Below are positions 22,833-45,559 of a stretch of 64,000 bases of DNA, piece by piece. A model generated the notes under the pieces. The model was not told where the DNA came from. It saw only the letters and a program-made list of their open reading frames with translations, and did not search any database. The translations under genes were made by a program, and so were the position numbers. Source of the DNA: Plantactinospora alkalitolerans (GTDB lineage Bacteria > Actinomycetota > Actinomycetes > Mycobacteriales > Micromonosporaceae); assembly GCF_015690345.1 (NCBI RefSeq), contig NZ_JADPUN010000205.1:1-64000 (forward strand), written 5' to 3'. Each line of letters begins with the position of its first letter. The stretch's first letter is position 1.

Positions 22833-22958
22833 GACCCGAGCTGTTGCTGGGCTCCGTCGCGATCAAAGTCGCCACCATGCCACCGCCCCGGCGACGCCCG
22901 GTCGCCGTCCACCGGGGCGGCGCCGTCGGGGCGCGGGCGGTTGTGACACGGACTTATG

Positions 22959-23852
22959 TCAACAAGGGAACGGGCGGCTCCGCCTCCTGCGCCGGACCAG
23001 TAGCCAGCCCAACAGCAACGCTACGACGAGTGCCGCTCCGGACCCGATCAGATGCAACGGCAGGACGACGATGGTGGCCGTAGCGTCCCGGGTCACCCCG
23101 TCCGAGCCGACCACCGCCACGGTGACCCGACACACACACGCCAGCGGCGGATCAGCCCAGCGGGCGCTGACCTCCCGGTCGGCGCCGCGAAGCAGGGTGA
23201 AGTCGGGAAACGGGACGCTGTCTCCCGCGACCCGGGCCCGAAGCCTGCCGTCGCCGAGGAAGTCGCGGCGCACGGTCCCCAGGTTGCGTACCGTCGCGGT
23301 GACGGCGAGCGGACCACGCACCGCGAATCCCGGCGCGCGAAGACTGGTGACATCGACCGACTCGACGGCGTGGCCGGGCACCGTGACGTACACCGGTGCG
23401 CCGACACTCCGACGCACGCCGATGCTGGCCCCACCGGGCCGAGGCGGCACCGAGAAGATCACCGCGACCTGGTGCTCGCCGGGTTCGGCAGCGGCCGGCA
23501 GGGCGATGCGCAGGCTCACCTGCCGGGCCGCTCCGCCGTCCAGCCGGAAGCTGTCCGGCCGCGCGGTGACCCACTCGACGGCCGAGTGGGGCGCGTCGGG
23601 CCGGAACCGGAGTTCTCCGTCGCGTCCGGCGGTGAAGCTCGCCTTTCGCACGAGGATGTCGATCGGGGCCCGACCGTGGTTGGTCACCGTGAACTCCCGC
23701 GGCCGTTCGATCTGGTCCGCTGGCACGATCACCCGGGTCGGGCTGACCGTCAGCGCAAAGTCCGAAGGCTCCGTCGGTTGACCCGACGCCGGGGCCGCCG
23801 ATGTCAGCGTGAGCATGACCGGAAGGACGACCCGCGTCACCCTGGTGCGCAT
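22959..23852 (-). CDS. DUF916-like membrane-anchored surface protein
   Basis: This 297-residue protein has a signal peptide (residues 1-24), two beta-sandwich-like halves and a C-terminal membrane helix (about 267-286) followed by a basic tail (RRRRRSRPF). The first half, with FTVTNHGRAPIDILVRKASF and a later LRIALPAAAEPGEHQVAVIF, follows the pattern of DUF916, the peptidoglycan-binding part of WxL-interacting proteins. The ATG overlaps the stop codon of the upstream DUF11 gene (TGATG), so the two are coupled. It is last in the operon with the giant surface protein and could tether that protein to the cell. Fold assignment is inference. Confidence 0.65.
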   Translation of the reverse strand: MRTRVTRVVLPVMLTLTSAAPASGQPTEPSDFALTVSPTRVIVPADQIERPREFTVTNHGRAPIDILVRKASFTAGRDGELRFRPDAPHSAVEWVTARPDSFRLDGGAARQVSLRIALPAAAEPGEHQVAVIFSVPPRPGGASIGVRRSVGAPVYVTVPGHAVESVDVTSLRAPGFAVRGPLAVTATVRNLGTVRRDFLGDGRLRARVAGDSVPFPDFTLLRGADREVSARWADPPLACVCRVTVAVVGSDGVTRDATATIVVLPLHLIGSGAALVVALLLGWLLVRRRRRSRPFPC

Positions 23853-24541
23853 CAGTCGACGGTGGGCGCGCTGGCGACGGGCTCGGCAGGTTCGGCGCGG
23901 GGCGCGGGCACCTCCCGGTGCTCCGGCCGGCGCTGGCGGCGACGCCGGGCGATGGTGACGATCGCGGCCAGCCCACCGACGACGGCCACCGCCCCCGCGG
24001 CGATGCCGTACCGGATTCTGCCGGAGCCCGACCGGTCGACGCGGGTGACGGCGGCACCCGCCGGGAGGAGGTCGGAGTGCGTCGCGCAGACGAGCGGCTT
24101 GGCGCCCCCCTTCACGGTCGCGCAGGCCACGGTGGCCAGTCGAAGCACCTCGTCGGAGGTCTGACCGACCCGGGCGACGGTGGTGAGGGTGGACTCCTTG
24201 CCCGCCTTCAGGTTGACCGACCAGGTGACGCTGCCGGCGCGGGCGGTACCGTCCCGGTCGGCGGAGACGAGGGTGAGGCCGGCAGGCAGGCTCTGGGAGA
24301 TCTGGAGCGCTCTGGTCTCGGTGGTGCCGAGATTGCGGACCCTGACCTTGTACGTCAGTTCGTCGCCGGCCGCGACGGCGGTCCGTCCGTTGTCCACCGC
24401 GATGCTGAGCAGTGGCTGTTTCGGATCGGGCGTCGCCGAAGGTTTCGGCGCCACCTCACCTTTGGGCGGCGACATTGCGGCTACCGGCGCCGCGATCGCC
24501 CAGGCGACGAGCGCGGTCGCAAGGACAGCGATGCTTGGCAT
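23852..24541 (-). CDS. DUF11-domain membrane-anchored protein
   Basis: This 229-residue protein has a signal peptide (residues about 1-22), a Pro-rich linker, one DUF11-like beta domain (about residues 45-150, with DELTYKVRVRNLGTTETRAL and a CATVKGGAKPLVCA pair of cysteines), a membrane helix (about 174-196) and a basic C-terminal tail. The ATG has AAGGAG upstream and lies 17 bases after the giant gene, so they share an operon. It may be a cell-attached partner for the DUF11 repeats of the giant protein. Confidence 0.75.
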   Translation of the reverse strand: MPSIAVLATALVAWAIAAPVAAMSPPKGEVAPKPSATPDPKQPLLSIAVDNGRTAVAAGDELTYKVRVRNLGTTETRALQISQSLPAGLTLVSADRDGTARAGSVTWSVNLKAGKESTLTTVARVGQTSDEVLRLATVACATVKGGAKPLVCATHSDLLPAGAAVTRVDRSGSGRIRYGIAAGAVAVVGGLAAIVTIARRRRQRRPEHREVPAPRAEPAEPVASAPTVD

Positions 24542-24558
24542 GATGCTCCTTATGACGG

Positions 24559-27500
24559 CTACTGGGTGATTGCCACGTACTCCAACGTCGCGGAGTACGA
24601 GTCGGCAACGGCGGACAATGGAATGACGGCCTGGTAGTCGTTGCTGATCGCGTCTCCTCCGGGCGCGGATGGCGTCGACTGACGGTGCACGATGACCGGG
24701 GTCAGCTCCGACAGGGGCTGGAAGACCTGGGCGCCGCTCTCCCGTACCCGTAGGTTCTCGATCGGAATGGTGTAGGGGTTGTCGGGATCGGCCGGCACGA
24801 AAGCGGGCGCCAGTGCCCGGACCGCCACCACATAACCGGTAGGGCTGTTCGTGGTGACCGTCATGGTGACCGCGTCGTCCACGACGATCACGGAGTCGGG
24901 ATGAACCCCGATGGTGAATCCGGGTATCAGCGATGTCAGGGTGAGGAACTGCCCCACCACGGTGGTCTCGGTCGCACACCGCGGGTCGTCGTTGCCGGCC
25001 GGGCAGTTGTTGCCGACCATGCTGGAGGTGACGCTGTTGAGCAGCAACCCGTCACCGGTGACGGGTTCGTTCACGGTGACGGTGTAGACGACCGTGGCTG
25101 TCCCGCCGACGACGAGGTCACCGGTCCAGGTCAGGATGGATCCGGCATAGCTCAGCGTGCCGGTGGTCGCGGTGGCGTCGGCGTTGTAGGCGGCGTCGTC
25201 GAGTACGCCGACGAGCGAGTCGGTCACCGTGGCGCCGGTGTACGTCGTCTGGCCGGCGTTCCTGATCAGGGTGCTGTACTGGACGATCCCGCCGGCCACC
25301 ACCTCGGCGGAGTTGGCGATCTTGGTGAGAAGCAGCGCCGGGACGAGTACGTTGACGGTCACCTCGCAGGCCGGGCCGCCGGGGCAGTTGGCTCCGACGG
25401 TGTCGGAGCTGACGGTGTTGACGAGAGTCGTGTCGCCGGCGGACGGAGAGCCGACCGTGACCGAGTAGGTGATGACGGCCGTGACCCCGACCGGCAGGTT
25501 TCCGGTCCAGGTCAGCACCGGGGCGTCGTAGCTGACCGCGCCGATGGTCGCCTCGGCGTCGTCGTTGAAGTCGGCTTCGTCCAGGACGTCGCTGAGCTGG
25601 TCGTCGAATGTCGCGCCGGTGTACGGCGTCTGCCCGGTGTTGGCCACCGTGACCGTGTAGGTGACCTGGTCCCCGACCGCGGCCGTGGCGGTGTCGGCGG
25701 TCTTGGTGATGCTCAGACCGGGAATCAGGATGGCCACCGTGGCGGCGCAGCGCGGATCCGTACCGCCCGCCGGGCAGTTGTTGCCCTGGGCGGCGGAGGT
25801 GACGACGTTCTCGAGGATCCGTCCGCCGGTCTGGGCGCCGTTGACCGTCACGGTGTAGGAGATCTCGACGGCGGAACCGACCGGCAGGTCACCGCGCCAG
25901 ACCAGGTTGGGGGCCGTGTACAGCAGTGTGCCGGTGGCGGCGGTGGCGTCGGCGTTGTAGGTCGCGTTCGCGAGCAGCCCACTGAGCGAGTCGGTGACGG
26001 TGGTGTCGACGTACGGCGTCTCGCCGGTGTTCGTCGCCGTGATGGTGTAGGTGACGGTGTCACCCGGGGTGGTGTTCGGGCTGTCGGCGGTCTTCACGAT
26101 GGTGAGCCCGGGGACGAGCACGTTGATGGTCAACGTGCAGGCTGGTCCTGGCGAGGCGGGCGGGCAGTTGCTGCCCGGTGCGGTGGTGGTGACGGTGTTG
26201 GTGATGATCCGGTTGCCGAGGTCCGGATTGTTGACGGTCATCGTGCCGGTGATGGTGACGACTCCGCCGATCGGGATGTCACCGGTCCAGGTCACGCTGG
26301 CGCCGACCACGGTGAGGATGCCGGAGCTGGCGACCTGGTCGCCGTTTGGCCGGGCGTCGTCGATGATGCCCAGCAGGCTGCTGTTGATCTGGATTCCGGT
26401 GTAGGCGGTCGGGCCGACGTTGGTGATGGTGCCGGTACGCCGGATCACCTGCCCGGGGACGGCGGTGGTCACGTCGGCTTCGTTGGTGATCGACAGCGCC
26501 GGAATGAGCACGGTGACGGTGACGGCACAGGCCGGGTCTGTGCCGGCGGGTGGACAGTTGTTGCCCACAGTGGTGGAGCTGACCGCGTTGGTCAGGATCT
26601 GGTCGCCAGTGGCGGGACTGTCGATCGCGACCGAGTAGGTGATCACGGCCGAGGCGCCCACGTCGAGGTCCCCGGTCCAGGTCAACACCGGATCGGTGTA
26701 CGACACGACGCCCACGGTCGCGGCGGCGCTCTGGTAGCTGGCGTCGTCGAGTACCTCGGTGAGGTCGTCGGTCAGGCTGGCCCCGGTGTACGGGGTCTGC
26801 CCGCTGTTGGTGACGGTGATCGTGTACCCGAGCGTGCTGCCCGGGGTGGTGGTGCCCGAGTCGGCGTGCTTCGTGATGCTCAGCGCCGGCAGCAGCACGC
26901 TGACGGTCGCCGCGCAGTCGGGGTCGCTGCCACCGGCCGGGCAGTTGCTGCCCGGCGTGCTGGAGGTGACCACGTTGCTGAGGACCCGACCGCCGGTCTG
27001 CGGATCGTCGGCGGTGACCGTGTAGCTGATGGTGGCCGTCGCGCCGATCGCCAGGTCACCGGTCCAGGTGATGACCGGGTCGGCGTAGGAGACGACGCCG
27101 ACGTCCGCGTCCGCGTCACCGTTGTAGGTCGCGTCCGGAAGCAGGCCGGCGAGGTTGTCGGCGACGGTGGCGGCGGTGTACGGGGTTTCGCCGGTGTTGG
27201 TGACCGTGATCGTGTAGCCGACGGTGCCGCCCGGCACCACGGTGGCGGTGTCCGCGGTCTTGAGCACCGCCAGGGCCGGGACGAGAACGGTGACCGTGGC
27301 GGTGCAGGCCGGATTGGTACCGCCCGCCGGGCAGTTGTTGCCGGGTACGGCTGAGCTGACCACCGAGGTCATGATCTTGTTTCCGGTATCCGGATTGTTC
27401 ACCGTGAACGATCCGGTGACGACGAGAACCTCGCCGACCCCGAGGTTGCCGGTCCAACGGATCGAGGCGATGGCCGGAAGCAGGACCAGCGTGCCCACGC

Positions 27501-30500
27501 TGGCTGCGGCATCACCGTTGTAGGTGCCGTCGTCGAGGGCGCCCGCGAAACTGGCGTCGATGACGATGTCGGTGTACGGCGTCGCGCCGGTGTTCTCCAC
27601 CCGGGTGCTGAACCGGACCTGCGCGCCCGGCACCGTGGTGGGACCGTCGACCGAGTTCGCGATGGTCAGTTCCGACACCGTCACGACGGCCGTACAGGCC
27701 GGGTTGGTGCTGCCGGCGGCGCAGGTGTTGCCGGCGGCCGTGGAGCTGACCGTGCTGGTCAGGAGGTGGTTGCCGGCGTCCGGGGTGTCAACGGTGACCG
27801 AGTAGGTGATCGTCGCCGTCGATCCGGGTGTCAGGGAGCCGGTCCAGACCAGGTCGGTGCCGGTCAGCACGACGCTGCCGACGCTCGGGGTCGCATCGCC
27901 GTTGTAGGTCGCGTCGTCCAGGAGGCCGGCCAGCGCGTTCGTCACGGTGACGCCGGACTGGGCGGTCTGCCCGGTGTTGACCATGGTGACGGTGTAGCTC
28001 ACCGTGCCGCCGGCGGTCGTGCTGGCGGTGCCGGCGGTGATGGCGATGCTCAGCGCCGGCGTGAGTACGGGCAGCGTCAGGCCGCAGCCGACGTTGGGAC
28101 TGGCCGGCGGGCAACTGTTGCCGACCTCGGCCGACGAGACTCTGTTCACCAGCAACTTGTCACCCGGGTCGGGCGCCAGCACGGTCATCGGGTAGGTGAT
28201 GACGGCGCTGGCCCCCACCGCGAGATCCCCGGTCCAGGTCAGCGTCGACGCCGCGAACGACAGCGATCCGGTCGTGGCGGTGGCGGTGCCGTCGACATAG
28301 GTCGCGTCGTCCAGCGCACCGGCCAGGTCGTCGGCGACCACCGCACCCAGGTACGGCGCGGTGCCGGTGTTGCTGATCGTGATGGTGTAGTTGACCGTCC
28401 CGCCGGGGACCGTGACCGGGGTGTCAGCCGTCTTGACGATGCTCATGGCGGGCAGCAGGACGTCCACGCTCGCGGTACACCGGGGGTCGGTTCCGCCGGT
28501 CGGGCAGTTGTTGCCGGGGATCGTCGAGCTGGCCGTGCTGACCATCACCTTGTTCCCCGGATCCGGGTTCCTTACCCGGAAGTCCCTCGCAATCGTGATC
28601 GTTCCGCCCACCGGAATATCGCCGCTCCAGACCAGACCGGCGGGGGTGACCACGAGGCTCCCCGAGGACGCCTCGTCCCGGATGGAGTCGGCGTCGTCGA
28701 GCAGGTCACTGCGGGCGAACGTGACGCTGACGCCGAAGAACGGCGTACTGCCGTTGTTGGCCAGAGTCGCCGTGAACCGGACCAGGCCGCCCGGGGTGAC
28801 GGCAGCGCGGTCGGCGGTGTTCACGATGGTCAGTGCCGAAACGGTCACCGTCGCGGTGCACCGCGGGTCGGCGCTTCCGTCGGAGCAGTTACTGTCCGGG
28901 GAGTCGGACACCACGGTGTTGACCAGCACGGCGTTACCGACGAGGGCGGCCACCGTCACGCTGTAGGTGAGCACGACGGACCCGTTCGCCGGAATGTCGC
29001 CCGTCCACTCCAGCAGCGGCTCGTCGTAGCTGAAGGTGCCACCGCCGTTCGACGAGGCGTCGTCGTTGTAGGTGGCATCGCCGAGTACGTCGGACAGATC
29101 GTCGTTGAGTTCCGCGCCCAGGTACGGGGTGCCGCCGGAGTTCGCGACGACGATCGTGTAGGTCACCACCGAGCCGGCGACGGTGGACGCCACATCGGCG
29201 GTCTTGGTGTACGAGAGCGTGCTTTCCCCGACGACCGCGACGGTGACGACGCACCGGGGGTCGGTGCCGCCCGCCGGACAGTTGTTGAGTGCCGCGCCCG
29301 AGGTGATCGTGCTGACCAGTGACGAGTCTCCCTCGACGGGATTGTCGATCGCCACGGTGAAGACGAGCGTGACGGTGGCCCCGACCGCCAGGTCACCGCT
29401 CCAGGTGAGCACCGGCGCGGTGTAGCTCACCGTTCCACCACCGGTGACCACCGTGTCGTTGTTGAATGTCGCGTCGTCGACGACCTGGCTGAGGTCGTCC
29501 GCGACGCTGATCGCGGTGTAGTCGAGCTGGCCGGAGTTGGTGATGGTCACCGTGTAGGTCAGGGTGCTACCGGGCATCCCCGTCGGGGAATCGGCGGTGG
29601 AGACAATGGTCAGCCCGGGCGTCAGGACGACCACCGTCGAGGTGCAGCCGACCGCCTGCCCCGCCGCCGAGCAGGAACTGCCGACCGCGGTGGAACTGAC
29701 CGTACTGACCATGTTCTTGTTGCCGGGATCGGGGTCCCGGACGGTGACCGTGTAATCGATTGTCACCACCGCGCCGACCGCCAGGCTGCCGGTCCAGGTC
29801 AGCGTGGTCCCGGCGAAGCCGACCGAACCGGCACTGGCCACCGCGTCGGCGTTGTAGGTCGCGTCGTCCAACAGCCCCGCCAGATCGTTGGTGACGCTGA
29901 TCGCCGAGTAGGGCGACGTACCCGAGTTGGTCACCGTCACGGTGTAGCCGACGATCTGACCGGGTGCGGCGGCCGAGGTGTCCGCGACGGTGGTGATGTC
30001 GAGTCCCGGGATGAGCACCGCGACGCTTATCGTGCACCGCGGATCCGTGCTGCCGGCGGGGCAGTTGTTGCCCGGTGCCGAGGAGACCGATGTGGCCGTG
30101 AGCAGGCCGTCGCCGCTGTACGGGTCCAGCACGGTCATGCTGCCGGTCAGGTTGACCGTGGCGCCGACGGGGATGTCACCGGTCCAGACCGCGCCGCCGG
30201 TTCCGACCGTCAGGATGCCCGATGTCGCCGTCTGGTCTCCGTTCCCGATGACCTCGTCGGTGAGGCCCGACGTGTCGAAGTCCACGCTGATGTCGTTGTA
30301 GGGCACCTGACCGGTGTTGGTGTAGCTCGCGTTGATCCGCACCACGCCACCCGGCGTGATGGTGGCGACATCGGTGGTGGTAATGATCTCCAGCCTGGCC
30401 ACCGGCACGCTGACAACGCATCGGGTGTCCGTGCCGCCGGCCGGACAGTTGCTGCCGGCGGCCGCCGAGACGACCTGGTTGGTCAGGATCAGGTCGCCCC

Positions 30501-33500
30501 CGACCGGATCGTCCACCGTCACCGAATAGGTGATCGTCACCGTGGCGCCGACCGCCAGCGCACCCGTCCAGCTCAGGTTGGGGCTGCTGAAGCTGGCCGA
30601 GCCGGCCGAGGCCGACACGTCGTTGTTGTAGGCGGCGTCGTCGAGAACCCCGGCGAGCGCGTCGGTGACCGTCAACGCCGGATAGGCGGTCTGACCGGAG
30701 TTGGTGAGGGTGACGGTGTAGCCGACCACGGAGCCCGGCGCGGTGCTGGCGACGCCGGACGTCACCGCGATCACCAGGCCCGGCACCAGGACCAGGACCG
30801 TCGCCGTGCAGCGCGGGTCGGTACCGCCGGTCGGACAGTTGTTGCCGGGGGTGGTGGAGACCACCGTGTTGCTCAGCACCTTGTCGCCGGGATCCGGGTC
30901 CAGAATCGTCATCGAGTAGGTGACGGACACCGCGGCGCCGATGGCCAGGTCACCGACCCAGCTCAGCACCGGAGCCGCATAGGACACGGTGCCGGCGGAT
31001 GCGACCGCGTCGTTGTTGTAGCTGGCGTCGTTCAGCGCATTGGCCAGGGAGTCGGTGAAGTTCGCGCCCACGTACGCGGTCTGGCCGACGTTCGTCACGG
31101 TGATCGTGTAAGTCGCCGTGCCACCGGGTGTCGTGGTGGCCGTGTCGGCGGTCTTCTCGATCGTCAGGCCCGGGGTCAGCACCGTGACGGTGGCCGTACA
31201 CGCCGGGTCGGTACCGCCCGTGGGGCAGTTGTTGTTGGCCGCCGCCGAGCTGACCGTCGAGGTCAGCACCTGGGAACCGGGATCGGGGTTCAGCACCGTC
31301 ACGGACAGCCGGACGGTGGCGGTCGCGCCGACCGCCAGCGCGCCGGTCCAGGTCAGCACCGAACTGGCGACGCCGACCGTGCCGCTGTCCGCCGTCGCGT
31401 CCCCGTTGTAGGTGGCGTCGTCGAACACATCGGCCAGCGATGCGGTGACGGTCGCCGCCGGATAGGCGGCCTCTCCGGTGTTCGAGATCGTGATCGTGTA
31501 ACCGACGGTTCCGCCGGGCGTCGTGGTGGACGCGCTCGGGGTGTTCGTGATGGCCAGTCCGGGCAAGAGCACGCCGACCACCGCCGTACACCGGAGGTCG
31601 GTGCTGCCCGTGGCACAGTTGGCACCTACCGTCGGGGACACCACAGTGTTGGTCAGCGACCGGTCCCCGGTATCGGGACTGGCGACCGTGACCGAGTAGG
31701 TGATGGTCGCGGTCGCACCCACGGCGAGGTTGCCGGTCCAGGTGATGGTCGGGCTGCTGTAGCTGACCACCCCGGAGGTGGCGGTGGCGTTGGCGTCGTA
31801 GACGGCGTCGTCGAGCACCCCGGCCAGCGAGTCGGTGAAGGTCGCCCCGACGTAGGCCGACTGGCCGGTGTTGGTCACCACGATCTGGTAAGTCACCACG
31901 TTCCCGGGCGTCGTACTCGGCGTATCCGCCGTCTTGACCAGGGTCAACCCGGGAATGACGACGGTGACCGCTGCGGTGCACCGCGGGTCGGTGCTGCCGC
32001 TGGCGCAGTTGTTGCCGACGGCCGTGGAGGAGACCACGCTGGTCAGCACCCGGTCTCCGACGGCCGGATCAGCCACGGTCACGCTGAAGGTGATGGTCAC
32101 CGTGCCGCCGACCGCGATGTTCCCGGTCCAGGTCAGCGTCGGGCTGGTGAAGCTGAGCGCGCCGCTGGTGGCGGTCGCGTCATCGTTCCAGACGGCGTCG
32201 TCGAGCACCGCTGCCAACGCGTTGGGCACGCTGATTCCGGTGTACGCCGTCTGCCCGGTGTTGGTGAGAGTGACCGTGTAGCCCACCGTGGAGCCGGGGA
32301 TGGCGGTCGACGCACTCGCGACGTTGGTCAGGACCAGCCCCGGCACCAGGACGGTGACCGTGGCGGTGCAGCGGACGTCGGTGCCACCGGATGGACAGTT
32401 GTTGCCCAGGGTGGTGGAGGCCACCGTGTTCGTCATGGCCCGGTCGCCGGGATCTGGGCGCCGGACGGTCACCGAGTAGCTGACGGTCACGCTCGCGCCC
32501 ACGGCCAGATTGCCGCTCCAGCTCAGGTTGGGCGAGGTGAAGGAGATCGCCCCGGCCGTCGCCGTCGCGTCGGCGTTGTAGGTCGCGTCATCCAGCACGC
32601 TGGTCAGCGCTTCGGTGAAGCCCGCGCCGGTGTACGGGGCCTGACCGGTGTTGGTCACGGTGACGGTGTAACGCACCACGTCACCAGGCGTCGCGGTGGC
32701 GACGTCCGCCGTCTTCACGATGGCCAGGGCGGCGATCGGCACGGTCGTCGTACACCGGACGTCCTGGCTGCCCGACGCACAGTTGGTGCCCAGCGTCGTG
32801 GAGGTCACCGTGTTGGTCAGTAGTTGGTTTCCGGTGACCGTGCCGTTCACGGTTACCGAGTAGGTGATGGTCGCGACCGCGCCGGCGGGCAGGTCACCGG
32901 TCCAGTTCAGGGTCGAGCCGGCGAAAGACACCGATCCGGAGGTCGCCGTCGCATCGCTGTTGTAGGCCGCGTCGTCCAGGACAGCAGCGAGCGGATCGGT
33001 CAGCGCGACGCTGGTGAACGCTACCGACGAGGTGTTGTTGACCGTGATCGAGTAGTGCACGGTCTGCCCGGCCGCCACGCTGGAGACGTCGGCGCTCTTC
33101 GTCACGATCAGCGGTCCGGCCGCGATCACCAGGTTGACGGCCGCGGTCGCCTGCTGACCAGCCGCGTCGACCACTCGTACGGTGAAGGGGTAACTACCTG
33201 CCGTGGTCGGGGTGCCGGAGAGCAGCCCGGTGCTGGCGTCGAGAGTCAGACCTGGCGGCAGGCTGCCTACGGAGACCGACCAGACGAACGGCGCGGTACC
33301 GCCGGTAACCGTCAGCGGCACGCTGTAGGGGACGCCTACCTGGCCCGACGGTGGCGGCGGGAAGTTCAGGGTGGGCGAGGCGGTGATGCCGAGCGCGACG
33401 GTACGGGTGGCGCTCTGCGAGAACGAGTCCATCACCCGAACGGTGAAGGAGTAGTTGCCGCCCAGTGTCGGGGTTCCGGAGAGCTGTCCGGTACCCGGGT

Positions 33501-36237
33501 TGAGGGTCAGACCCGGCGGGAGGCTGCCTGCGGTGACCGACCAGGTGAACGGGGCGGTACCGCCGGTCACGGTGAGCGGGATGCTGTAGCCGATCCCGAC
33601 CTGGCCCTGGGGTGGCGTCGGAAAGGTCAGCGTCGGCGGCGGCGCGATGACCACGCTCAGCGCCTGGGTGGCGGACTGTCCACTGGCGTCGAGCACCCGA
33701 ACGGTGAACCCGAAGGTTCCGGCGGTGGTAGGGGTGCCGGAGAGCAGCCCGGTGCTGGCGTTGAGGGTCACCCCGGCCGGTAGCGTTCCGGCACTGACCG
33801 ACCAGACGAAGGGAGCGGTGCCGCCGTTGACCGTGAGCGGGACACTGTAGGTTGCGCCGACCTCACCGAGCGGCGGTGCCGGGTTCGACAGCGTTGGAGA
33901 AACGTTCGGGATCACCGGCGTGGACTGGGCCGACGGTGGCCCGGTCCCGCCGGCGTTCGTCGCCGCCACCGTGAAGGTGTACGAGGTGCCAGGGGTCAGT
34001 CCGGTCACTGTCCGGGTGGTGCCGGTACCGGTGAAGGTCTGCGGCGTCTGGGCCACGCCCGCGACGTACGGGGTGACCACGTACGAGAGGATCGGGCTCC
34101 CGCCGTTGCTGGGCGCGGTCCAGGTCAGGGTGGCCGCCGAGTCCCCGGCGCTCGCCGCCGTGATCGTCGGTGCGCCGGGCAGCACGAACGGCACCACGGC
34201 GTTCGAGGCGGGGCTGGCCGTACCGGTGCCGATGGCGTTCACCGCCGCGACCGTTAAGGTGTAGGAGGCGCCGACGGTCAGCCCGGTCAACGTACGGGTG
34301 GTGGTGGAGGCATCGTACGAGATCGGGGCCTGGGCCACCCCGTTCCTGGTCGGCGTGACGATGTAGCCGGTGATCGCGCTGCCATTGCTTGACGGCGCCG
34401 ACCAGCTGACGGTGGCGCTGGCAAGGCCGGCTGTCGCGGTCGGCGCGGTCGGGGTGGCCGGCCGGTCCGTGTAGACGTAGCTGGCAGCGGCGGCGACACC
34501 CCGGGTCACCACGGTGACCGTCACGGTGGCCGCGCTGGTCCGCGACGGCATCGACGAGATGGCAAGGGTGCCGTCGCCGTTGACGGTGAAACAACCGGCG
34601 GCCGGCCCGGACTGACACGGCAGCAGCGTGACCGGGGTCCCCGCCTGCTGCTCCGCAGTGGTGCCGATCTCGATGGCCGTCGCTCCGGCGATGTTCGTAC
34701 CACCGACCGTGACGCCGATGCCACCGGCGATGGTGCTCGTCGCCGGAGTGACGGTGATCCCGCTCGGGGTGGCCGGCACCGTCCCGGCGGTCGTCGACGA
34801 CGAGAAGCCGGGATTGGCGTCGCTGGACGAGGCGGTGGCCATGGACTGGGTCTGGATGATCGCGGGTGTAACGCTGGAACCGGTCACGATGCCGACGATC
34901 GTGACCGGGGACAGGGTGCTCCCGTTGGCGAAGGGGGTGTTGCTGTTGGCACAGGTGATCTTCTGGCCCACCGGGGCGGCGCAGACCCAGCCGGAGCCGA
35001 AGGCGCCGACCGGCACCACGCCGGTCGGCAGCGTCTCCGTCACCGAGATCGCATTTGTCTCGTCAGCACCGGCGCTGACGCCGGCCACGACCGAGTAGGT
35101 CACCGGGTCACCGGGCTGGGGCGTCGGGCCGGTGTAACTGGTCTGGGTCACGTTCAGGTCCGGCACCGGGTTGAACGTCAGCACCCGGACGTTGTCGACC
35201 TCGTGGTTGTCCACCACGGAACCGGTCGAACCCACCCAGCCGAACGCGAGTTGCCGTGGAATTCCGTTGCTGTTCAGCCAGCTCGTCGAGGGATACAGGC
35301 CGGCCGGGACCACCGGTAGCGGGCCCTCCAGGGTTCGGGCGGCCTGGCCCACGGGCGTGAACCGCACCAGATACCGACCAGACGCGACTATCAGCCCGGA
35401 GGGGGTGGTGAACGAGGAAGTCGTCGGGTTGATCGCCACCTCCACCGGCACGACCGAGGCAGCCCGGGTCGCCGCACGCAACGGAATCACCGGCGAACTC
35501 CCCGAGGTCGCGGTGCTGTTCACCCCGCAGTATCCAACCGTGTTCCGGCCCGGACCACGGACCAACACCTGGCCGGGGATCTTGGCGGCCGTGATGTACG
35601 GCGGGCTCGGCAGGCAGCCGCTTCCCTCGTAGGTGGTGGTGCTGTAGTTGCCGAAGACGTCGAAGCCGATGCCCATGTAACCGTTTGCCAGCCCGGGCAG
35701 CGTCTTCGTGCTCGAGTAGCCCAGCGCGCCGCCGGTCTGGCCGAGGGTGGCGGGTGCCAACGGCACGGCGGGGTCGACGGCGGCCAGCGAGAAGGTCATC
35801 CCGTCGGCGCTGCCGCCGCCCCACTGGTAGAGGTTGAACGTGACGTCCAGACCAGACACGGTCGGTACGCTCGTCGCCCCGAAGACGCCACCGGTCCGGA
35901 ATGTGGAGGTGTCGGTGAGCTGGAGTTTGCCGGTGCCCGGCGGGGTTGTGCCCGCCGCACAACTGTGCAGGGCTCCGGTGCTCGGATTGCCCGAGGCGGT
36001 CAGGCAGGCGGAGTTCGGTGTCGTGGCAGAACCGCTCGGCAGGGCCGGCAGGGTCACGGCGCCGAGGCCGTCCGGGGTGTTGTTGTGGAACGGCTGGTCG
36101 AACAGGAGGGTGCCGGCCGCCGAGGCGGGGGCCGGACTGAGGACGACCACCAGCGCCGCCAGCAACGCGGCGACGAGGCAGACCGCGAGATCACGTCGCC
36201 GCCGACGCCGGACGGCTGGTGCGATGTCCGCGTTCAC
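24559..36237 (-). CDS. Giant secreted DUF11-repeat surface protein with lectin-like head
   Basis: This 3,892-residue protein is one of the largest adhesin-like proteins one would expect in an actinomycete. Residues 1-41 are a signal peptide ending ASA. Residues about 42-356 look like an L-type lectin-like domain (DGMTFSLAAVDP, GYMGIGFDVFGNYS). A DUF11/CARDB-like domain follows (357-470), then a TIG-like domain (490-590), two FN3-like domains (595-775) and three He_PIG-like Ig domains (783-1036). Residues about 1040-3762 contain 21 DUF11 repeats of about 130 residues. The last 130 residues form a WxL-like beta domain (VTMTVTTNSPTGYVVAV ... YSATLEYVAI). There is no LPXTG or terminal membrane helix. 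The start is a GTG with a weak ribosome site. A role in adhesion or as a surface layer is inferred. Confidence 0.85.
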   Translation of the reverse strand: MNADIAPAVRRRRRRDLAVCLVAALLAALVVVLSPAPASAAGTLLFDQPFHNNTPDGLGAVTLPALPSGSATTPNSACLTASGNPSTGALHSCAAGTTPPGTGKLQLTDTSTFRTGGVFGATSVPTVSGLDVTFNLYQWGGGSADGMTFSLAAVDPAVPLAPATLGQTGGALGYSSTKTLPGLANGYMGIGFDVFGNYSTTTYEGSGCLPSPPYITAAKIPGQVLVRGPGRNTVGYCGVNSTATSGSSPVIPLRAATRAASVVPVEVAINPTTSSFTTPSGLIVASGRYLVRFTPVGQAARTLEGPLPVVPAGLYPSTSWLNSNGIPRQLAFGWVGSTGSVVDNHEVDNVRVLTFNPVPDLNVTQTSYTGPTPQPGDPVTYSVVAGVSAGADETNAISVTETLPTGVVPVGAFGSGWVCAAPVGQKITCANSNTPFANGSTLSPVTIVGIVTGSSVTPAIIQTQSMATASSSDANPGFSSSTTAGTVPATPSGITVTPATSTIAGGIGVTVGGTNIAGATAIEIGTTAEQQAGTPVTLLPCQSGPAAGCFTVNGDGTLAISSMPSRTSAATVTVTVVTRGVAAAASYVYTDRPATPTAPTATAGLASATVSWSAPSSNGSAITGYIVTPTRNGVAQAPISYDASTTTRTLTGLTVGASYTLTVAAVNAIGTGTASPASNAVVPFVLPGAPTITAASAGDSAATLTWTAPSNGGSPILSYVVTPYVAGVAQTPQTFTGTGTTRTVTGLTPGTSYTFTVAATNAGGTGPPSAQSTPVIPNVSPTLSNPAPPLGEVGATYSVPLTVNGGTAPFVWSVSAGTLPAGVTLNASTGLLSGTPTTAGTFGFTVRVLDASGQSATQALSVVIAPPPTLTFPTPPQGQVGIGYSIPLTVTGGTAPFTWSVTAGSLPPGLTLNPGTGQLSGTPTLGGNYSFTVRVMDSFSQSATRTVALGITASPTLNFPPPPSGQVGVPYSVPLTVTGGTAPFVWSVSVGSLPPGLTLDASTGLLSGTPTTAGSYPFTVRVVDAAGQQATAAVNLVIAAGPLIVTKSADVSSVAAGQTVHYSITVNNTSSVAFTSVALTDPLAAVLDDAAYNSDATATSGSVSFAGSTLNWTGDLPAGAVATITYSVTVNGTVTGNQLLTNTVTSTTLGTNCASGSQDVRCTTTVPIAALAIVKTADVATATPGDVVRYTVTVTNTGQAPYTGAGFTEALTSVLDDATYNADATATAGAISFTSPNLSWSGNLAVGASVTVSYSVTVRRPDPGDRAMTNTVASTTLGNNCPSGGTDVRCTATVTVLVPGLVLTNVASASTAIPGSTVGYTVTLTNTGQTAYTGISVPNALAAVLDDAVWNDDATATSGALSFTSPTLTWTGNIAVGGTVTITFSVTVADPAVGDRVLTSVVSSTAVGNNCASGSTDPRCTAAVTVVIPGLTLVKTADTPSTTPGNVVTYQIVVTNTGQSAYVGATFTDSLAGVLDDAVYDANATATSGVVSYSSPTITWTGNLAVGATATITYSVTVASPDTGDRSLTNTVVSPTVGANCATGSTDLRCTAVVGVLLPGLAITNTPSASTTTPGGTVGYTITISNTGEAAYPAATVTASLADVFDDATYNGDATADSGTVGVASSVLTWTGALAVGATATVRLSVTVLNPDPGSQVLTSTVSSAAANNNCPTGGTDPACTATVTVLTPGLTIEKTADTATTTPGGTATYTITVTNVGQTAYVGANFTDSLANALNDASYNNDAVASAGTVSYAAPVLSWVGDLAIGAAVSVTYSMTILDPDPGDKVLSNTVVSTTPGNNCPTGGTDPRCTATVLVLVPGLVIAVTSGVASTAPGSVVGYTVTLTNSGQTAYPALTVTDALAGVLDDAAYNNDVSASAGSASFSSPNLSWTGALAVGATVTITYSVTVDDPVGGDLILTNQVVSAAAGSNCPAGGTDTRCVVSVPVARLEIITTTDVATITPGGVVRINASYTNTGQVPYNDISVDFDTSGLTDEVIGNGDQTATSGILTVGTGGAVWTGDIPVGATVNLTGSMTVLDPYSGDGLLTATSVSSAPGNNCPAGSTDPRCTISVAVLIPGLDITTVADTSAAAPGQIVGYTVTVTNSGTSPYSAISVTNDLAGLLDDATYNADAVASAGSVGFAGTTLTWTGSLAVGAVVTIDYTVTVRDPDPGNKNMVSTVSSTAVGSSCSAAGQAVGCTSTVVVLTPGLTIVSTADSPTGMPGSTLTYTVTITNSGQLDYTAISVADDLSQVVDDATFNNDTVVTGGGTVSYTAPVLTWSGDLAVGATVTLVFTVAIDNPVEGDSSLVSTITSGAALNNCPAGGTDPRCVVTVAVVGESTLSYTKTADVASTVAGSVVTYTIVVANSGGTPYLGAELNDDLSDVLGDATYNDDASSNGGGTFSYDEPLLEWTGDIPANGSVVLTYSVTVAALVGNAVLVNTVVSDSPDSNCSDGSADPRCTATVTVSALTIVNTADRAAVTPGGLVRFTATLANNGSTPFFGVSVTFARSDLLDDADSIRDEASSGSLVVTPAGLVWSGDIPVGGTITIARDFRVRNPDPGNKVMVSTASSTIPGNNCPTGGTDPRCTASVDVLLPAMSIVKTADTPVTVPGGTVNYTITISNTGTAPYLGAVVADDLAGALDDATYVDGTATATTGSLSFAASTLTWTGDLAVGASAVITYPMTVLAPDPGDKLLVNRVSSAEVGNSCPPASPNVGCGLTLPVLTPALSIAITAGTASTTAGGTVSYTVTMVNTGQTAQSGVTVTNALAGLLDDATYNGDATPSVGSVVLTGTDLVWTGSLTPGSTATITYSVTVDTPDAGNHLLTSTVSSTAAGNTCAAGSTNPACTAVVTVSELTIANSVDGPTTVPGAQVRFSTRVENTGATPYTDIVIDASFAGALDDGTYNGDAAASVGTLVLLPAIASIRWTGNLGVGEVLVVTGSFTVNNPDTGNKIMTSVVSSAVPGNNCPAGGTNPACTATVTVLVPALAVLKTADTATVVPGGTVGYTITVTNTGETPYTAATVADNLAGLLPDATYNGDADADVGVVSYADPVITWTGDLAIGATATISYTVTADDPQTGGRVLSNVVTSSTPGSNCPAGGSDPDCAATVSVLLPALSITKHADSGTTTPGSTLGYTITVTNSGQTPYTGASLTDDLTEVLDDASYQSAAATVGVVSYTDPVLTWTGDLDVGASAVITYSVAIDSPATGDQILTNAVSSTTVGNNCPPAGTDPACAVTVTVLIPALSITNEADVTTAVPGQVIRRTGTITNVGPTAYTGIQINSSLLGIIDDARPNGDQVASSGILTVVGASVTWTGDIPIGGVVTITGTMTVNNPDLGNRIITNTVTTTAPGSNCPPASPGPACTLTINVLVPGLTIVKTADSPNTTPGDTVTYTITATNTGETPYVDTTVTDSLSGLLANATYNADATAATGTLLYTAPNLVWRGDLPVGSAVEISYTVTVNGAQTGGRILENVVTSAAQGNNCPAGGTDPRCAATVAILIPGLSITKTADTATAAVGDQVTYTVTVANTGQTPYTGATFDDQLSDVLDEADFNDDAEATIGAVSYDAPVLTWTGNLPVGVTAVITYSVTVGSPSAGDTTLVNTVSSDTVGANCPGGPACEVTVNVLVPALLLTKIANSAEVVAGGIVQYSTLIRNAGQTTYTGATVTDSLVGVLDDAAYNADATATTGTLSYAGSILTWTGDLVVGGTATVVYTVTVNEPVTGDGLLLNSVTSSMVGNNCPAGNDDPRCATETTVVGQFLTLTSLIPGFTIGVHPDSVIVVDDAVTMTVTTNSPTGYVVAVRALAPAFVPADPDNPYTIPIENLRVRESGAQVFQPLSELTPVIVHRQSTPSAPGGDAISNDYQAVIPLSAVADSYSATLEYVAITQ
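24950..33118 (-). repeat. Tandem array of 21 DUF11 coding repeats (~390 bp each)
   Basis: Diverged units of about 389 bp follow one another within the giant gene. Each encodes a DUF11 domain with the landmarks TPGxxVxYTxTVTNTGQ, LDDAxYNxDA, LTWTGxLAVGA and a closing NNCPxGGTDPRC. Units are similar but not identical, which points to old duplications. Most units share a Cys-x8-Cys pair near the end. Confidence 0.85.
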
Positions 36238-36490
36238 CGCGTCGCCCCAGACGACGTCAGTTCAGCGACGCGTTGCACCGCTGTCGCCCTCGTTGTCACG
36301 TTGTCCCCACCCCCGAGTTCGTCACAGGAGGGAGCAAGAGCCGCAACAGACGCCCGATTTCCCTCCAGTCCCAAACCAGGATATGAGTAGGAAACCGACC
36401 ATAAGTGCGTTCTCTGGTGAAAATATGCCCGAAAGGCCCAGATAGTGACAGGCAACGCAGCCGAACGAGACTGAACCGGGGACGGCAGTC

Positions 36491-36619
36491 ATGGAATCCT
36501 TCTCACTTAGACCAACCGTTGCCACGAGGGAAGCCTCGGACAGCAACGGTGTGGTCCGGATCCACGAGGACGGCTCCATCCGGAAGGTCGAGATCGATCC
36601 CACCGGACGGACAACGTGA
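36491..36619 (+). CDS. Small 42-residue open frame, possible peptide
   Basis: This short frame starts MESFSLRPTVATREASD and ends with a polar stretch (VRIHEDGSIRKVEIDPTGR). It has sensible actinobacterial codon use and its stop codon overlaps a GTG start at 36616 (GTGA), the arrangement of a translationally coupled pair. The second frame begins KRPDINSDEAPVRHRP and is lost in an IS630 remnant after about 25 codons. The size and coupling would fit a modified-peptide precursor, but no leader motif is recognised. The ribosome site is weak. Confidence 0.35.
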   Translation: MESFSLRPTVATREASDSNGVVRIHEDGSIRKVEIDPTGRTT

Positions 36620-36690
36620 AACGCCCGGATATCAACAGCGACGAGGCCCCGGTACGGCACCGTCCGGATGCGCTCCGACCGGCGGATCGA

Positions 36691-37040
36691 CCTGGAAGAC
36701 CTCCCGCGATCCCGACTACGCCACGAAGAAGGCCCGGGTCGAGCACCTCTACGCGATCGCCGACCGCGAGGTCATACCCGAGCCCGGCGAGCCGGACGTC
36801 GTCTTCTGCCTGGACGAGTTCGGCACGCTCAACCTCCAGCACCATCCAGGGCGGCAGTGGGCCGGGCGCGGCGGCAAGCACAAGGATCCCAACCGGGAGC
36901 CCTGGCCCCGCCGCCTACACCCGGCCACACGGGATCCGACACCTGTTCGCTGCCTACGACGTGGTCAACGACAAGCTCTACGGTCACATCAAGAAGACCA
37001 AGGACCGCTCGAAGTTCCTCGGGTTCTGCCGCTACCTGCG
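36691..37040 (+). pseudogene. IS630-family transposase remnant
   Basis: Two frames together encode the DDE region of an IS630 transposase. The first gives DYATKKARVEHLYAIADREV and VVFCLDEFGTLNLQ with the catalytic-type Asp, then HPGRQWAGRGGKH. After about 36905 a frame change is needed to continue with HGIRHLFAAYDVVNDKLYGH and KFLGFCRYLRS. The N-terminal HTH and the C-terminal end are missing and no terminal inverted repeats were seen. The remnant touches the 3' end of the DUF916-like gene, whose stop codon (37032-37034) lies within it. Confidence 0.75.
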
Positions 37041-38012
37041 CAGCCGGGCACGACGCAGGCGCCAGCCGAGCAGCCCGGCGATCAGCAGCAGCGCCACGGC
37101 GGCGCCGGGCACGAACAGCAGCAACCCCGGGCCGGCGGATTTCGCCTTCTGGGCCACCCCGGGCAGGACCAGCTCGGCCTCGGCGGTACGTCGTACGGTG
37201 CCGCTGCTCAGGATCAGCTGCGCCGTCCAGGTGCCGGCCGCCAACGGCTGATCCACCGTCGTGCTGACCTGGCCGCGCTGGCCCGGCAGGATGGTCACGC
37301 CGGTGGTGACCCGGAACGGCCCGGCCCGGACCGTCTCGGAGTCGTTCGCCAGGTGCAGGGTTCCGTCCATGTCGAGGGCACGCCGGCCGGTGTTGTGCAC
37401 CCACGCGGTGACCACCGGCCAGCTTCCCGATCCGGACCCGACCGCCATCTGGTCGATCCGGAAGTCGGTCGGCGGCTCCCCGCCCATCCCGATGTCGAGG
37501 TACATCCGTACGCCGACCCGGTGGACCTGGGTGACGCCGCCGTCGCGGGCCGGGCTGGTGACCTGCGCCCAGACCGCCGCGTACCGCTCACCCGCCGACG
37601 CGGTCCCCGGGACCGCGACCGTGACCTGTACCCGCTTCCTGGCTCCGGGCGCCAGTTCGACTCGATCCGAGTCCAGGGTCACCCAGTCGCTGAGTTCGTT
37701 GCCCCCACGACCGTCCGCGGCGGTGAAGATGTTCTTCTCGACGCTGGCGGCGCCGGCGTACAACTCGACCTTGTGGCGCTCGTCCGAGGTGTTGCGGACC
37801 TCGACCCGGCGTTGGATGCTCGTCCCCGGCTCGAGGTGGTCCACGATGTACGCGTTCGCCCTCGGATCCTGGGCCCGGGCGACCGGAATCTCCAGCAGTT
37901 GGAGGCCGATTCCCGACCCCCCGGAGTCCCGCTCGCCCGGCATCGGGCGTCCGGCGGCGGTCGGTGCCGCGGACGCTCCGAGGGCCAGGACGGCGACGGA
38001 GGTCAGCAGCAC
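37032..38012 (-). CDS. DUF916-like membrane-anchored protein (WxL-partner type)
   Basis: This 326-residue protein starts with a short hydrophobic signal sequence, then a domain (about residues 35-170) with YIVDHLEPGTSIQRRVEVRN, VELYAGAASV and VTVAVPGTASAGERYAAVW, which is the DUF916 pattern of WxL-interacting proteins. A second beta domain (about 175-275) corresponds in place to DUF3324. A C-terminal membrane helix (about 295-316) and a basic tail RLRRARLRR follow. The GTG start is 16 bases after the small WxL-like gene, so the two form an operon. The end of the gene overlaps an IS630 remnant, so the native tail may have been altered. Confidence 0.7.
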   Translation of the reverse strand: MLLTSVAVLALGASAAPTAAGRPMPGERDSGGSGIGLQLLEIPVARAQDPRANAYIVDHLEPGTSIQRRVEVRNTSDERHKVELYAGAASVEKNIFTAADGRGGNELSDWVTLDSDRVELAPGARKRVQVTVAVPGTASAGERYAAVWAQVTSPARDGGVTQVHRVGVRMYLDIGMGGEPPTDFRIDQMAVGSGSGSWPVVTAWVHNTGRRALDMDGTLHLANDSETVRAGPFRVTTGVTILPGQRGQVSTTVDQPLAAGTWTAQLILSSGTVRRTAEAELVLPGVAQKAKSAGPGLLLFVPGAAVALLLIAGLLGWRLRRARLRR

Positions 38013-38028
38013 CAGCCGGCGGACGCCG

Positions 38029-38574
38029 TCACAGCACCGAATGTGTCACCGTCCCGGTGTACGTACCGCCGGAGGTGCCGACCGGCACGTCGACCAGCAC
38101 GGTGGGGTTCCAGGTCGCGAAGTTGTTGCCCGAGCCGCCGGTGTGGGTGAACGCGGTCCGGGGGACGTTGATGATCACTGCGTCGGCCGCGGTCGGCTGT
38201 CCCGGCGTGAAGGTCCCCGATCCGGCGGTGCCGGTGGCGGGTCCGGACCAGTAGCGGACGTTGATGACCGGGATCGTCTCCTCCGCCGTGCCGGCGCCGG
38301 TGGTGAAGTCGGTCGCGACGACGGTGGTGACCCAGCTCGCGTTCAGCAGGGCCCGCTGGTCCAGCACGGTGACCGGGCCAAGGTTTCCGGAGACCGTGGC
38401 GCCCTCGGTGCCGTTGCCCAGGTTCGCCGTCGCCGGCACGGTGATGGTGAGGCCGCCGGCGGCGGTGACGTTGAGGGTGACGATGGTGCTCCCCTCGTCG
38501 GCGGAGGCCGGCGCGGCGAGTCCGACCGCCAGGGCTACGCCGGCCAGGCAAGCGGATAGCAGGGTCTTTTTCAT
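38029..38574 (-). CDS. Small WxL-like secreted protein
   Basis: This 181-residue protein has a signal peptide (KKTLLSACLAGVALAVGL, cleavage near ASA) and a beta-rich domain. The layout is that of a WxL domain: GLTITVPATANLGNG, then VLDQRALLNASWVTTVVATD, then near the end a tryptophan (FATWNPTVLVDVPVGTSGG) and a closing strand TYTGTVTHSVL. The two tryptophan sites are WVT and WNP rather than W-x-L, so this is a divergent member. The ATG has GGGAGA upstream. It precedes the DUF916-like gene. In Firmicutes WxL proteins bind peptidoglycan and DUF916 partners. Confidence 0.65.
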   Translation of the reverse strand: MKKTLLSACLAGVALAVGLAAPASADEGSTIVTLNVTAAGGLTITVPATANLGNGTEGATVSGNLGPVTVLDQRALLNASWVTTVVATDFTTGAGTAEETIPVINVRYWSGPATGTAGSGTFTPGQPTAADAVIINVPRTAFTHTGGSGNNFATWNPTVLVDVPVGTSGGTYTGTVTHSVL

Positions 38575-38635
38575 GTGAATCTCCCAGGTGCGGTAAGACA
38601 CGGGTCTTCCTCGGAGATTACTAAGACAAGTTACC

Positions 38636-39018
38636 TCAATACGGACGAAAAGACCATTCGCGTTTGAATGCTGCCTCCAGTGCCCCGTTCAGGTCCGGGT
38701 GCCGGAACTGGAAGCCGGCCCGGTTCAGTAACGCCGGGCAGCACCCGGAGGCTGCGCAGCGCCTCCACCACCATCTCGCCGAGCAGGACCCGCAATGCGA
38801 TCCCGGGCACCGGCATCACGGCCGGCCGGTGCAGGGCCCCGCCGAGCGCCTTGGTGAACTCGGCGTTGGTGGCCGGCCTCGGGCCGACGATGTTGACCGG
38901 GCCGGCGATGTCGTCGCGGTTCAGCAGGAAGGTCACCGCCGCGATCCAGTCGGTCAGCGAGATTCACGGGATCCACTGCCGCCCGTTGCCGAACTTGCCC
39001 GCGATGCCGAACACTGCC
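38636..39018 (-). pseudogene. TIGR01777-type NAD-dependent epimerase fragment
   Basis: The C-terminal half of a TIGR01777 (SDR39U1-like) protein is readable: GKFGNGRQWIP, then an in-frame TGA where the family has Trp, ISLTDWIAAVTFLLNRDD, GPVNIVGPRPATNAEFTKAL and LLGEMVVEALRSLRVLPG. A frameshift follows and the true end (FRHPDLNGALEAAF) lies in another frame. The N-terminal NAD-binding part is absent. A truncation, a stop and a frameshift show that the gene is dead. Confidence 0.75.
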
Positions 39019-44002: not shown

Positions 44003-45529
44003 TCAGTAGCGCCAGGGATTGCCGGTGTCCCGGTACTCCTCGATCGGGACCAGCGGAACGTCCGGGTCCATCCGGTCGACGTACAGCCTGCCTTCGAGAT
44101 GGTCGACCTCGTGGGCGACCAGCCGGGCCATGGCGAGTTCGAACGAGGTGATCACGCGTCCGCCGTCCCAGCGGGCGTGCTCGATGTCGAGCCGGAGCGG
44201 CCGGGCCACCAGGCCCCGCAGGTCGAACAGGGAGAGGCACCCCTCGTACTGTTCGTCGGTTTCCAGGGCCGCGTCGACGACCCTGGGATTGAGCAGCACG
44301 ACCGGCTCCGCGTCCCGGTCCGGCGGCCGGACGACGGCGACGGCCCAGGGCAGCCCGATCTGCGGCGCGGCGAGACCGACCCCCTTGCTGAACGGGTGCA
44401 GCTCGTCGAGCCGTTCCAGCACGGTTCGTAGCCGGCTCACCACGTCGCGGGCGTTGGCCTCGTCGCGGGGCAGGTCGAACTGCCGGGCCGGCTGCCGGAG
44501 CAGGTCCGCTCCGAGCTGCACGATTCCGGCGGCCCGCATGCGGTCGCTGGCCCGGGTCTCCGACTCGGGCTCCGGGGCGGTCGGTGTGGTGGGCGCGGCC
44601 CGGTAGCGCCACTCCAGTCGGTACCGGGCGTTCAACGGCGGGTCGTCGGTCGACCACTCGAAGAGGACCCGTCCGTCTCCGTCGTGCCGGACCAGCGGCG
44701 TACGCAGCGGCCCCTCCTCCGCCGACAGTGACGTTTCCACCCCCCAGACCTGCGGGTCCAGGTCGAGCGGCAGGTCGAGTCGCAGCGCGAGCCGGCGGGT
44801 GGGCAGCCGGACCGCCCGCTGGAACCACTGGCCCCACTTGTCCTGGTTCACCCGGTACGAATACTCGGTGGTGATCCGTTCTCCGGGATAGAGCGGGAAC
44901 CGCCCGTCGGAGTTCTCGAAGAGCAGCCACACCTCCTTGAACGCGTCCCGGTCGTGCTTCTTGCGCCACTCCATCGGCTCGCGGGTGCCCTGGTCGTCGC
45001 AGAACGCCTGGAGGTCCAGTTCCGCGAAGGTCAGCGGGTTCTCCCGGTGGTGCCGGTTCGACCGACCCGGATCGTTGGGATATCGGTCCACGGCCACCCG
45101 GACCAGATAGCGGGTCACCGGCTCGGTGCCGGCGTTGTAGAGGGCCCGGCGGATCACGCACCGGTAGGCGTCGCCGTCGTAGGCGAGGGTGGCCGTCTCC
45201 TGCTCCACGATCAGGCCGGTGCCGGGCGGCATCCACTGCTCGGGTACCGGGGGGTCGCGGTGCGCGACGACGGCGGAGCGCGCCTGCCGGAGTTCGTCGT
45301 ACTCCTGGAAGCGCTGCCAGATCGCTCCGGCCGCGCCCAGCACGGCCTCGGCGCGGCGGGCGAAATCCTCGGTCGGACGGTGCCGACGCCCCTCCACGTG
45401 GCTGACGTAGGAAGGGTCGAACCCCATCCGGGCCGCGAGCTGCTTCTTCGTCATTCCCCGCTCGACCCGCCGGCGGGAAAGCTCGGCCGCGAACGAGTCG
45501 GCAGCCCGCTCGATAGGCGAGGTGGTCAT
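44003..45529 (-). CDS. XRE-HTH / peptide deformylase fusion protein
   Basis: This 508-residue protein has an N-terminal XRE-type helix-turn-helix (about residues 10-70, MTKKQLAARMGFDPSYVSHV), a middle beta-rich region of about 230 residues that I do not recognise, and a C-terminal peptide deformylase domain (about 350-500). All three deformylase motifs are present: GVGLAAPQIG (about residue 384), EGCLSL (about 430) and HEVDHLEG (about 473), which supply the metal-binding Cys and two His and the catalytic Glu. Deformylases remove formyl groups from nascent proteins; fusion to a DNA-binding domain is unusual. The ATG at 45529 has AGAGGA upstream. A perfect palindrome lies 31 bp before it, suggesting self-regulation. 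Confidence 0.85.
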   Translation of the reverse strand: MTTSPIERAADSFAAELSRRRVERGMTKKQLAARMGFDPSYVSHVEGRRHRPTEDFARRAEAVLGAAGAIWQRFQEYDELRQARSAVVAHRDPPVPEQWMPPGTGLIVEQETATLAYDGDAYRCVIRRALYNAGTEPVTRYLVRVAVDRYPNDPGRSNRHHRENPLTFAELDLQAFCDDQGTREPMEWRKKHDRDAFKEVWLLFENSDGRFPLYPGERITTEYSYRVNQDKWGQWFQRAVRLPTRRLALRLDLPLDLDPQVWGVETSLSAEEGPLRTPLVRHDGDGRVLFEWSTDDPPLNARYRLEWRYRAAPTTPTAPEPESETRASDRMRAAGIVQLGADLLRQPARQFDLPRDEANARDVVSRLRTVLERLDELHPFSKGVGLAAPQIGLPWAVAVVRPPDRDAEPVVLLNPRVVDAALETDEQYEGCLSLFDLRGLVARPLRLDIEHARWDGGRVITSFELAMARLVAHEVDHLEGRLYVDRMDPDVPLVPIEEYRDTGNPWRY

Positions 45530-45559
45530 CAGGTTCCTCTGGCCGGGAATCTCAGTTTG

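Follow-up and report, generated by a model that had tools for sequence, protein, structure and literature searches.

A probable actinomycete version of the WxL/WxLIP cell-surface system in Plantactinospora alkalitolerans

Does the WxL cell-surface system, so far portrayed as confined almost entirely to Firmicutes and as linked to gut commensalism and virulence, have a counterpart in actinomycetes? The question is raised by positions 22959-38574 of a 64,000-nucleotide stretch of Plantactinospora alkalitolerans DNA (GCF_015690345.1, contig NZ_JADPUN010000205.1, positions 1-64,000; hereafter the window), where an initial annotation had read five minus-strand genes as one WxL-like surface system built around a giant protein. 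The genes probably encode an actinomycete version of the WxL/WxLIP system, and form two neighbouring modules: module 1 (38574-37032) holds a small WxL-like protein (W) and a WxLIP/DUF916-like protein (I), and module 2 (36237-22959) holds the giant protein, a membrane-anchored DUF11 protein (DM) and a second WxLIP/DUF916-like protein (I2). The homology of W and of I and I2, the conserved pairing of the W and I genes, the domain architecture, and the hydrophobic signals and anchors could be demonstrated, and the mode of action proposed below follows by analogy with Firmicutes.

All five open reading frames (ORFs) were confirmed at the positions listed below, and the third-position guanine plus cytosine (GC) content is high in the giant gene, in 37032-38012 and in 38029-38601; the five genes are real. 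The start of DM is the ATG at 24541, preceded by AAGGAG, and the stop of the giant lies at 24559-24561; DM shares one base with I2 (TGATG) and does not overlap the giant. A hydrophobic N-terminus is present in W, I, the giant and DM, and C-terminal transmembrane (TM) helices are present in I (amino acids (aa) 292-319), DM (aa 176-199) and I2 (aa 257-287).

38029-38574, minus strand: W, small secreted WxL-like protein (P0005), 181 aa; signal peptide and one beta-sandwich domain
37032-38012, minus strand: I, WxLIP/DUF916-like protein (P0004); Ig-like region and C-terminal TM helix, 3' end at the probable rearrangement junction
36700-37058, plus strand: frame-broken DDE/IS630-type transposase-like remnant, recognised by eye and without a Pfam match; abuts the 3' end of I and marks the module join
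24559-36237, minus strand: giant surface protein, 3892 aa
35158-36168, minus strand: L-type-lectin-like N-terminal region of the giant (aa 24-360), common to large W proteins of ~1000 aa
24973-33102, minus strand: stalk of the giant (aa ~1046-3755), ~21 DUF11/DUF7927 repeats of ~130 aa, each with one Cys pair
24562-24966, minus strand: predicted pilin-like C-terminal domain (CT) of the giant, with YxV/YxA motifs; stand-alone small CT proteins occur in other actinomycetes
23852-24541, minus strand: DM, membrane-anchored single-DUF11 protein, 229 aa
22959-23852, minus strand: I2, second WxLIP/DUF916-like protein (P0001), partner gene in the giant module

Relatives of W and of the DUF916-like proteins

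Sequence comparison supports homology of the W family to the WxL domain without the name-giving motifs, because its profile matches WxL proteins while its motifs have diverged, mostly to WxA and HxV, and to W-V-T and H-S-V in the window protein. Homologs of W were gathered from related genomes and aligned, and the resulting profile was compared with annotated WxL proteins of the Bacillaceae (Pontibacillus, Virgibacillus and Terribacillus), which gave a probability of 95.8 (E 6.6e-9), and of 91 (E 9.8e-7) after the signal peptides had been cut, far above the controls. The final profile comparisons used local alignment mode, after the signal peptides had been cut and contaminated DUF11 rows left out; they supersede a global-mode comparison in which CT scored no better than controls and the score of W against I was misleading. 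The Pfam WxL family, PF13731, was matched singly by 5 of 27 W family members (best 6.9e-5), and the actinobacterial proteins L098, L093 and L094, which exceed the PF13731 cut-off, are also found by the W profile (3.8e-42, 1.5e-10 and 1e-13, respectively) and so bridge the two families; genes near them match the I profile. Across a phylum-wide sample of 396 genomes, the W profile matches 25, and PF13731 was found in 14 (8 above cut-off).

The WxL domain carries a conserved Asp at W1-8 and Arg at W1-6 ahead of motif 1 (PMC9772566), and the same residues precede motif 1 in the W family: D-x-R..W is kept in 146 of 150 proteins, including that of the window, with a D-to-W distance of 8 or 9 in 143 of the 150, mostly one residue longer than the Firmicutes spacing. 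Of the 150 proteins, 120 have Ala as the third residue of motif 1. Like the WxL proteins of Lactiplantibacillus, Enterococcus and Listeria (CscB/CscC, Swp/Lwp), the family occurs both as a small secreted single-domain form and as the C-terminal domain of large adhesin-like proteins, next to a DUF916-type gene.

Homology of I and I2 to DUF916/WxLIP, with I2 in the same family as I, is likewise supported. Compared with annotated DUF916 proteins of the Bacillaceae, the profile of the I family gave a match across 193 columns (probability 73, E 3.2e-5), PF06030 is matched by 16 of 28 I family homologs (best 4.2e-8), and I2, which had no PF06030 match in the Pfam scan, was recovered at 1.7e-14 by an I profile built without I2 and without its ortholog in the same-genus genome G004. 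As in the Firmicutes WxLIP proteins (PF06030 plus PF11797; CscA), the I-type proteins have a hydrophobic N-terminus, an Ig-like region and a C-terminal TM helix within about 300-340 aa, and their gene adjoins that of a small WxL protein. The I product (326 aa) is shorter than its G004 counterpart (~340 aa). The profile comparisons and bridging proteins thus uphold the kinship with WxL and DUF916 that the initial annotation had assigned to W and to both DUF916-like proteins. The genome of P. alkalitolerans also holds a second W-I pair (L087, G000:C188, 2151-3729) and further WxLIP-like genes on G000:C48 and G000:C164, and two of these additional WxLIP-like genes exceed the PF06030 cut-off.

Conserved gene pairing and large partner proteins

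Relatives of I, 225 in number, were found in GTDB species genomes with a closer subset of the I alignment as the query (the full alignment gave no conserved stretch), and neighbourhoods were taken from the best 80 of the 225. In all 80 loci the gene immediately upstream of I is a W gene (76 by the strict rule, 4 allowing longer ORFs), and the co-occurrence in related genomes that the initial annotation called for was thereby found for this pair. Because the loci were picked by similarity to I, they document that W accompanies this I family and do not measure the frequency of the pair. They belong to Micromonospora, Plantactinospora, Catellatospora, Asanoa, Nonomuraea, Microbispora, Streptosporangium, Streptomyces, Kitasatospora, Lentzea, Actinokineospora, Thermobifida and others.

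In 21 of the 80 loci, a large protein with a C-terminal W domain lies within 10 kb. One type, found in Micromonospora (L111) and Plantactinospora endophytica (L066), combines an L-type-lectin-like region, two fn3 domains, He_PIG and the W domain, and its N-terminal half is common to the giant. Another, in Lentzea (L140, 4112-8818; L178, 5343-10034), is ~1,565 aa long, with three laminin-G and three DUF2341 stretches each and the W domain at the C-terminus. A PF11999 ice-binding-like domain is followed by a C-terminal W domain in L063 (10485-11657), L073 (10107-11348), L136 (11540-12760) and L180 (11614-12786); in several actinomycetes, the same WxL-like platform apparently presents proteins of ice-binding type. 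WxL clusters of Firmicutes combine small and large WxL proteins with a WxLIP (PMC10599100, PMC9772566), and the actinomycete loci follow this logic: at least one WxLIP-like protein and two proteins with W-type domains, small and large, lie within a few genes of each other in Micromonospora, Catellatospora, Lentzea and Actinokineospora. For the window, the outcome turns on whether the CT of the giant counts as WxL-like.

The giant protein and its C-terminal domain

The giant consists of the lectin-like N-terminus, two fn3 domains, three He_PIG domains, the DUF11/DUF7927 repeats (mean identity 0.46) and a C-terminal domain of ~133 aa, and amounts to the lectin and fn3/He_PIG parts of the large W proteins with an added DUF11 stalk. 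Large Firmicutes WxL adhesins (about 500-1000 aa; PMC9772566) likewise carry N-terminal adhesin or lectin domains and a C-terminal anchor domain; the giant differs from them in its length, its DUF11 repeats, its divergent CT and the extra DUF11 membrane protein alongside. Five of 201 Micromonosporaceae genomes, belonging to three genera, carry the giant, and each has an I-like gene next to it; a neighbouring DM-like gene was read in the window and in genomes G603, G613 and G488, and the DM copy in G004 is implied by a 91% DNA alignment. Adjacency of W to the I2-type genes varies among the giant clusters.

No relevant Pfam match was obtained for the C-terminus of the giant in the scan, and the five genuine giants served as the basis for the CT profile. 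Three phosphotransferase-like genes (L222-L224) were excluded as products of profile drift in the first iterated C-terminal profile, and L225 and L226 were set aside as weak single-sequence matches. The CT domain was found in 19 sampled genomes, comprising the five Micromonosporaceae with giants and 14 further genomes in two other families, where several giants have ~3,000-3,200 residues and share their cluster with a stand-alone CT protein of ~175-182 residues, I and DM. Most of the clusters read outside the Micromonosporaceae hold the small CT protein, I and DM; the order at L267 is small CT, I, giant and DM on one strand, and it varies in the others. Since stand-alone CT proteins are clustered with giants, the division into small and large forms seen for W applies to the CT domain as well.

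A homology of CT to WxL is suggestive. The CT and W profiles match at probability 25 (E 7.6e-4), against 0.014-0.85 for the W/CT controls and 4.8e-4 for an Ig-like control pair, I against DUF11; CT against the Bacillaceae WxL profile gave E 0.019. Structure prediction gives CT a pilin-like fold (pLDDT 91.5), and the CT and W models (pLDDT 87.8 for W) share their fold neighbours, namely donor-strand pilins, TLP-1 fibres and GH123 N-terminal domains. Fold matches lie at Z about 7-10; that of CT to TLP-1a (Z 9.7) is modest, and the others are near the unspecific range. The WxL-like end that the initial annotation had given the giant stands at that suggestive level, on the profile match and the fold neighbours common to W. 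No solved structure convincingly resembling W or I by sequence was found. Both models (CT, m45ccf8659bf7; W, mb0e6bade6362) also match the N-terminal domain of GH123-type glycosidases at Z about 8.

Proposed mechanism and alternatives

If the actinomycete system works as in Firmicutes, the WxLIP-like proteins would serve as docking sites for the C-terminal pilin-like domains and would complete the beta-sandwich of the docked domains, as a strand or hairpin of WxLIP is predicted to do for the WxL sandwich (PMC10599100). Docking would keep the large protein attached to the wall or membrane. Cell-wall binding is known for WxL domains of E. faecalis (Brinster et al. 2007, as cited in PMC9772566) and may apply here. 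The lectin would extend away from the cell, where it may recognise glycans of surfaces, polymers, plants or other microbes. In the giant, CT may do the same job as a WxL domain. An Ig-like domain is roughly 4 nm long, and the ~27 such domains of the giant could form a stalk of about 100 nm, the base of which might conceivably be held by DM through its DUF11 domain.

Several findings weigh against the assignment to the WxL/WxLIP system. Pfam and NCBIfam single-sequence scans of the five window proteins mostly stayed below threshold for the regions at issue: W had no relevant Pfam match and did not reach the PF13731 cut-off, as is the case for most actinomycete members, and I matched PF06030 WxLIP_PGBD at 8.3e-5 with 23.0 bits against a cut-off of 27.3. 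Firmicutes WxL proteins have two WxL motifs, in place of which WxA/HxV prevail in the W family and YxV/YxA occur in CT; the hosts are high-GC actinomycetes, and the ends of the window proteins show no LPxTG. In the I-type proteins, DPRAxxYIVDHLxPG stands in place of NQIDKxxxYFDLK, the WxLIP motif of Firmicutes, and a basic tail follows the TM helix; DUF3324 (HBD, PF11797) went unmatched in the window proteins, a bridging homolog scoring 0.051. The sequence link of CT to WxL is marginal, many fold Z-scores fall within the range that the comparison tool grades as unspecific, the best 80 of the 225 loci are a biased sample chosen by similarity, and the adjacency of the two modules is not conserved in G004.

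The last point bears on whether the products of all five window genes assemble into a single stable complex, which is unlikely. In the window the genes follow one another on one strand, and a W gene flanks the giant-DM-I cluster in G603 and G613. Against such a complex, window positions 37058-39010, with the pair, align at 85% to 9.30 Mb of G004; 22884-35008, with the giant operon, matches the region at 0.42 Mb at 91%, and this alignment extends on to 36218. The alignment blocks stop at 37058 and 36218, and between them (36700-37058, ending at the 3' end of I) lie two plus-strand frames that read by eye like pieces of a DDE/IS630-type transposase; a three-frame Pfam search of this interval and of the stretch upstream of W gave nothing. 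P. endophytica (G006) has the W-I pair, and no giant C-terminus was found there. Because the modules lie far apart in G004 and a transposase-like remnant occupies their junction, an element-linked rearrangement probably joined them, and neither a five-protein complex nor the single conserved unit of the initial annotation is upheld. The limits of the G004 alignment over 22884-36218 nearly coincide with those of the giant operon, as though the operon were mobile as an island. Upstream of W, 38631-39010 resembles by eye the end of an epimerase gene; this remnant belongs to the moved block and is conserved at 82-85% in G004 and P. endophytica. Elsewhere in the window, 49246-50940 encodes an actinomycete protein with a D-glucuronyl C5-epimerase C-terminal domain, and the single ORF at 44003-45604 joins a helix-turn-helix domain to a peptide deformylase domain.

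Distinctly improbable is a membrane-anchored donor-strand system, in which the WxLIP-like proteins would be PapD- or TapA-like chaperones and W and CT would polymerise into thin fibres with the large lectin protein at the tip. It agrees with the predicted folds of CT and W, which match donor-strand pilins and TLP-1 fibres, with the alternating hydrophobic pattern of the mature W N-terminus (modelled with low confidence), with the predicted WxLIP hairpin noted above, and with the strand complementation by which TapA acts on TasA, as described in PMC10151520. Against it, neither polymer evidence nor an usher gene was seen, Z-scores of about 7-10 may reflect merely a common sandwich, and one membrane-anchored WxLIP-like protein per locus also fits simple anchoring; the resemblance to TasA/TapA and chaperone-usher pilins comes without a detectable sequence relation. 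That the proteins are unrelated secreted beta-sandwich adhesins, their likeness to WxL and DUF916 arising by convergence of Ala/Thr-rich beta proteins, would fit the sub-threshold single-protein scores, the diverged motifs and the comparable score of the Ig-like control pair; it is highly improbable in view of the margin of the W-WxL match over its controls, the transitive bridge through proteins above the Pfam cut-off, the retention of D-x-R..W and the paired synteny.

The WxL/WxLIP-like system of two modules remains the preferred reading. As to whether an equivalent had been described in actinomycetes, the literature searched yielded no description of a WxL system in them, as the initial annotation had supposed, although NCBI already labels some actinobacterial homologs, such as those of Arthrobacter, 'DUF916 domain-containing protein' and leaves the small gene hypothetical. 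According to the Pfam counts cited in PMC9772566, 91% of WxL sequences are in Firmicutes, so that some occur elsewhere. A broader proposal is quite improbable, namely that Gram-positive WxL-type domains are pilin-like donor-strand acceptors and DUF916/WxLIP proteins membrane-tethered strand-donating chaperones, building lectin-tipped fibres or stalks of about 100 nm in actinomycetes; if true, it would make WxL clusters the Gram-positive counterpart of chaperone-usher adhesins. The predicted pilin-like fold leads to a specific hypothesis on the role of the WxL domain that can be tested. The findings supply names for actinomycete genes now called hypothetical and offer environmental model organisms. 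With its conserved pair of small and DUF916-type genes, lectin-bearing large partners and variants of ice-binding and laminin-G type, a divergent WxL counterpart present in many genera of actinomycetes points to a platform for surface display that is general to Gram-positive bacteria, and not to a device of host virulence.

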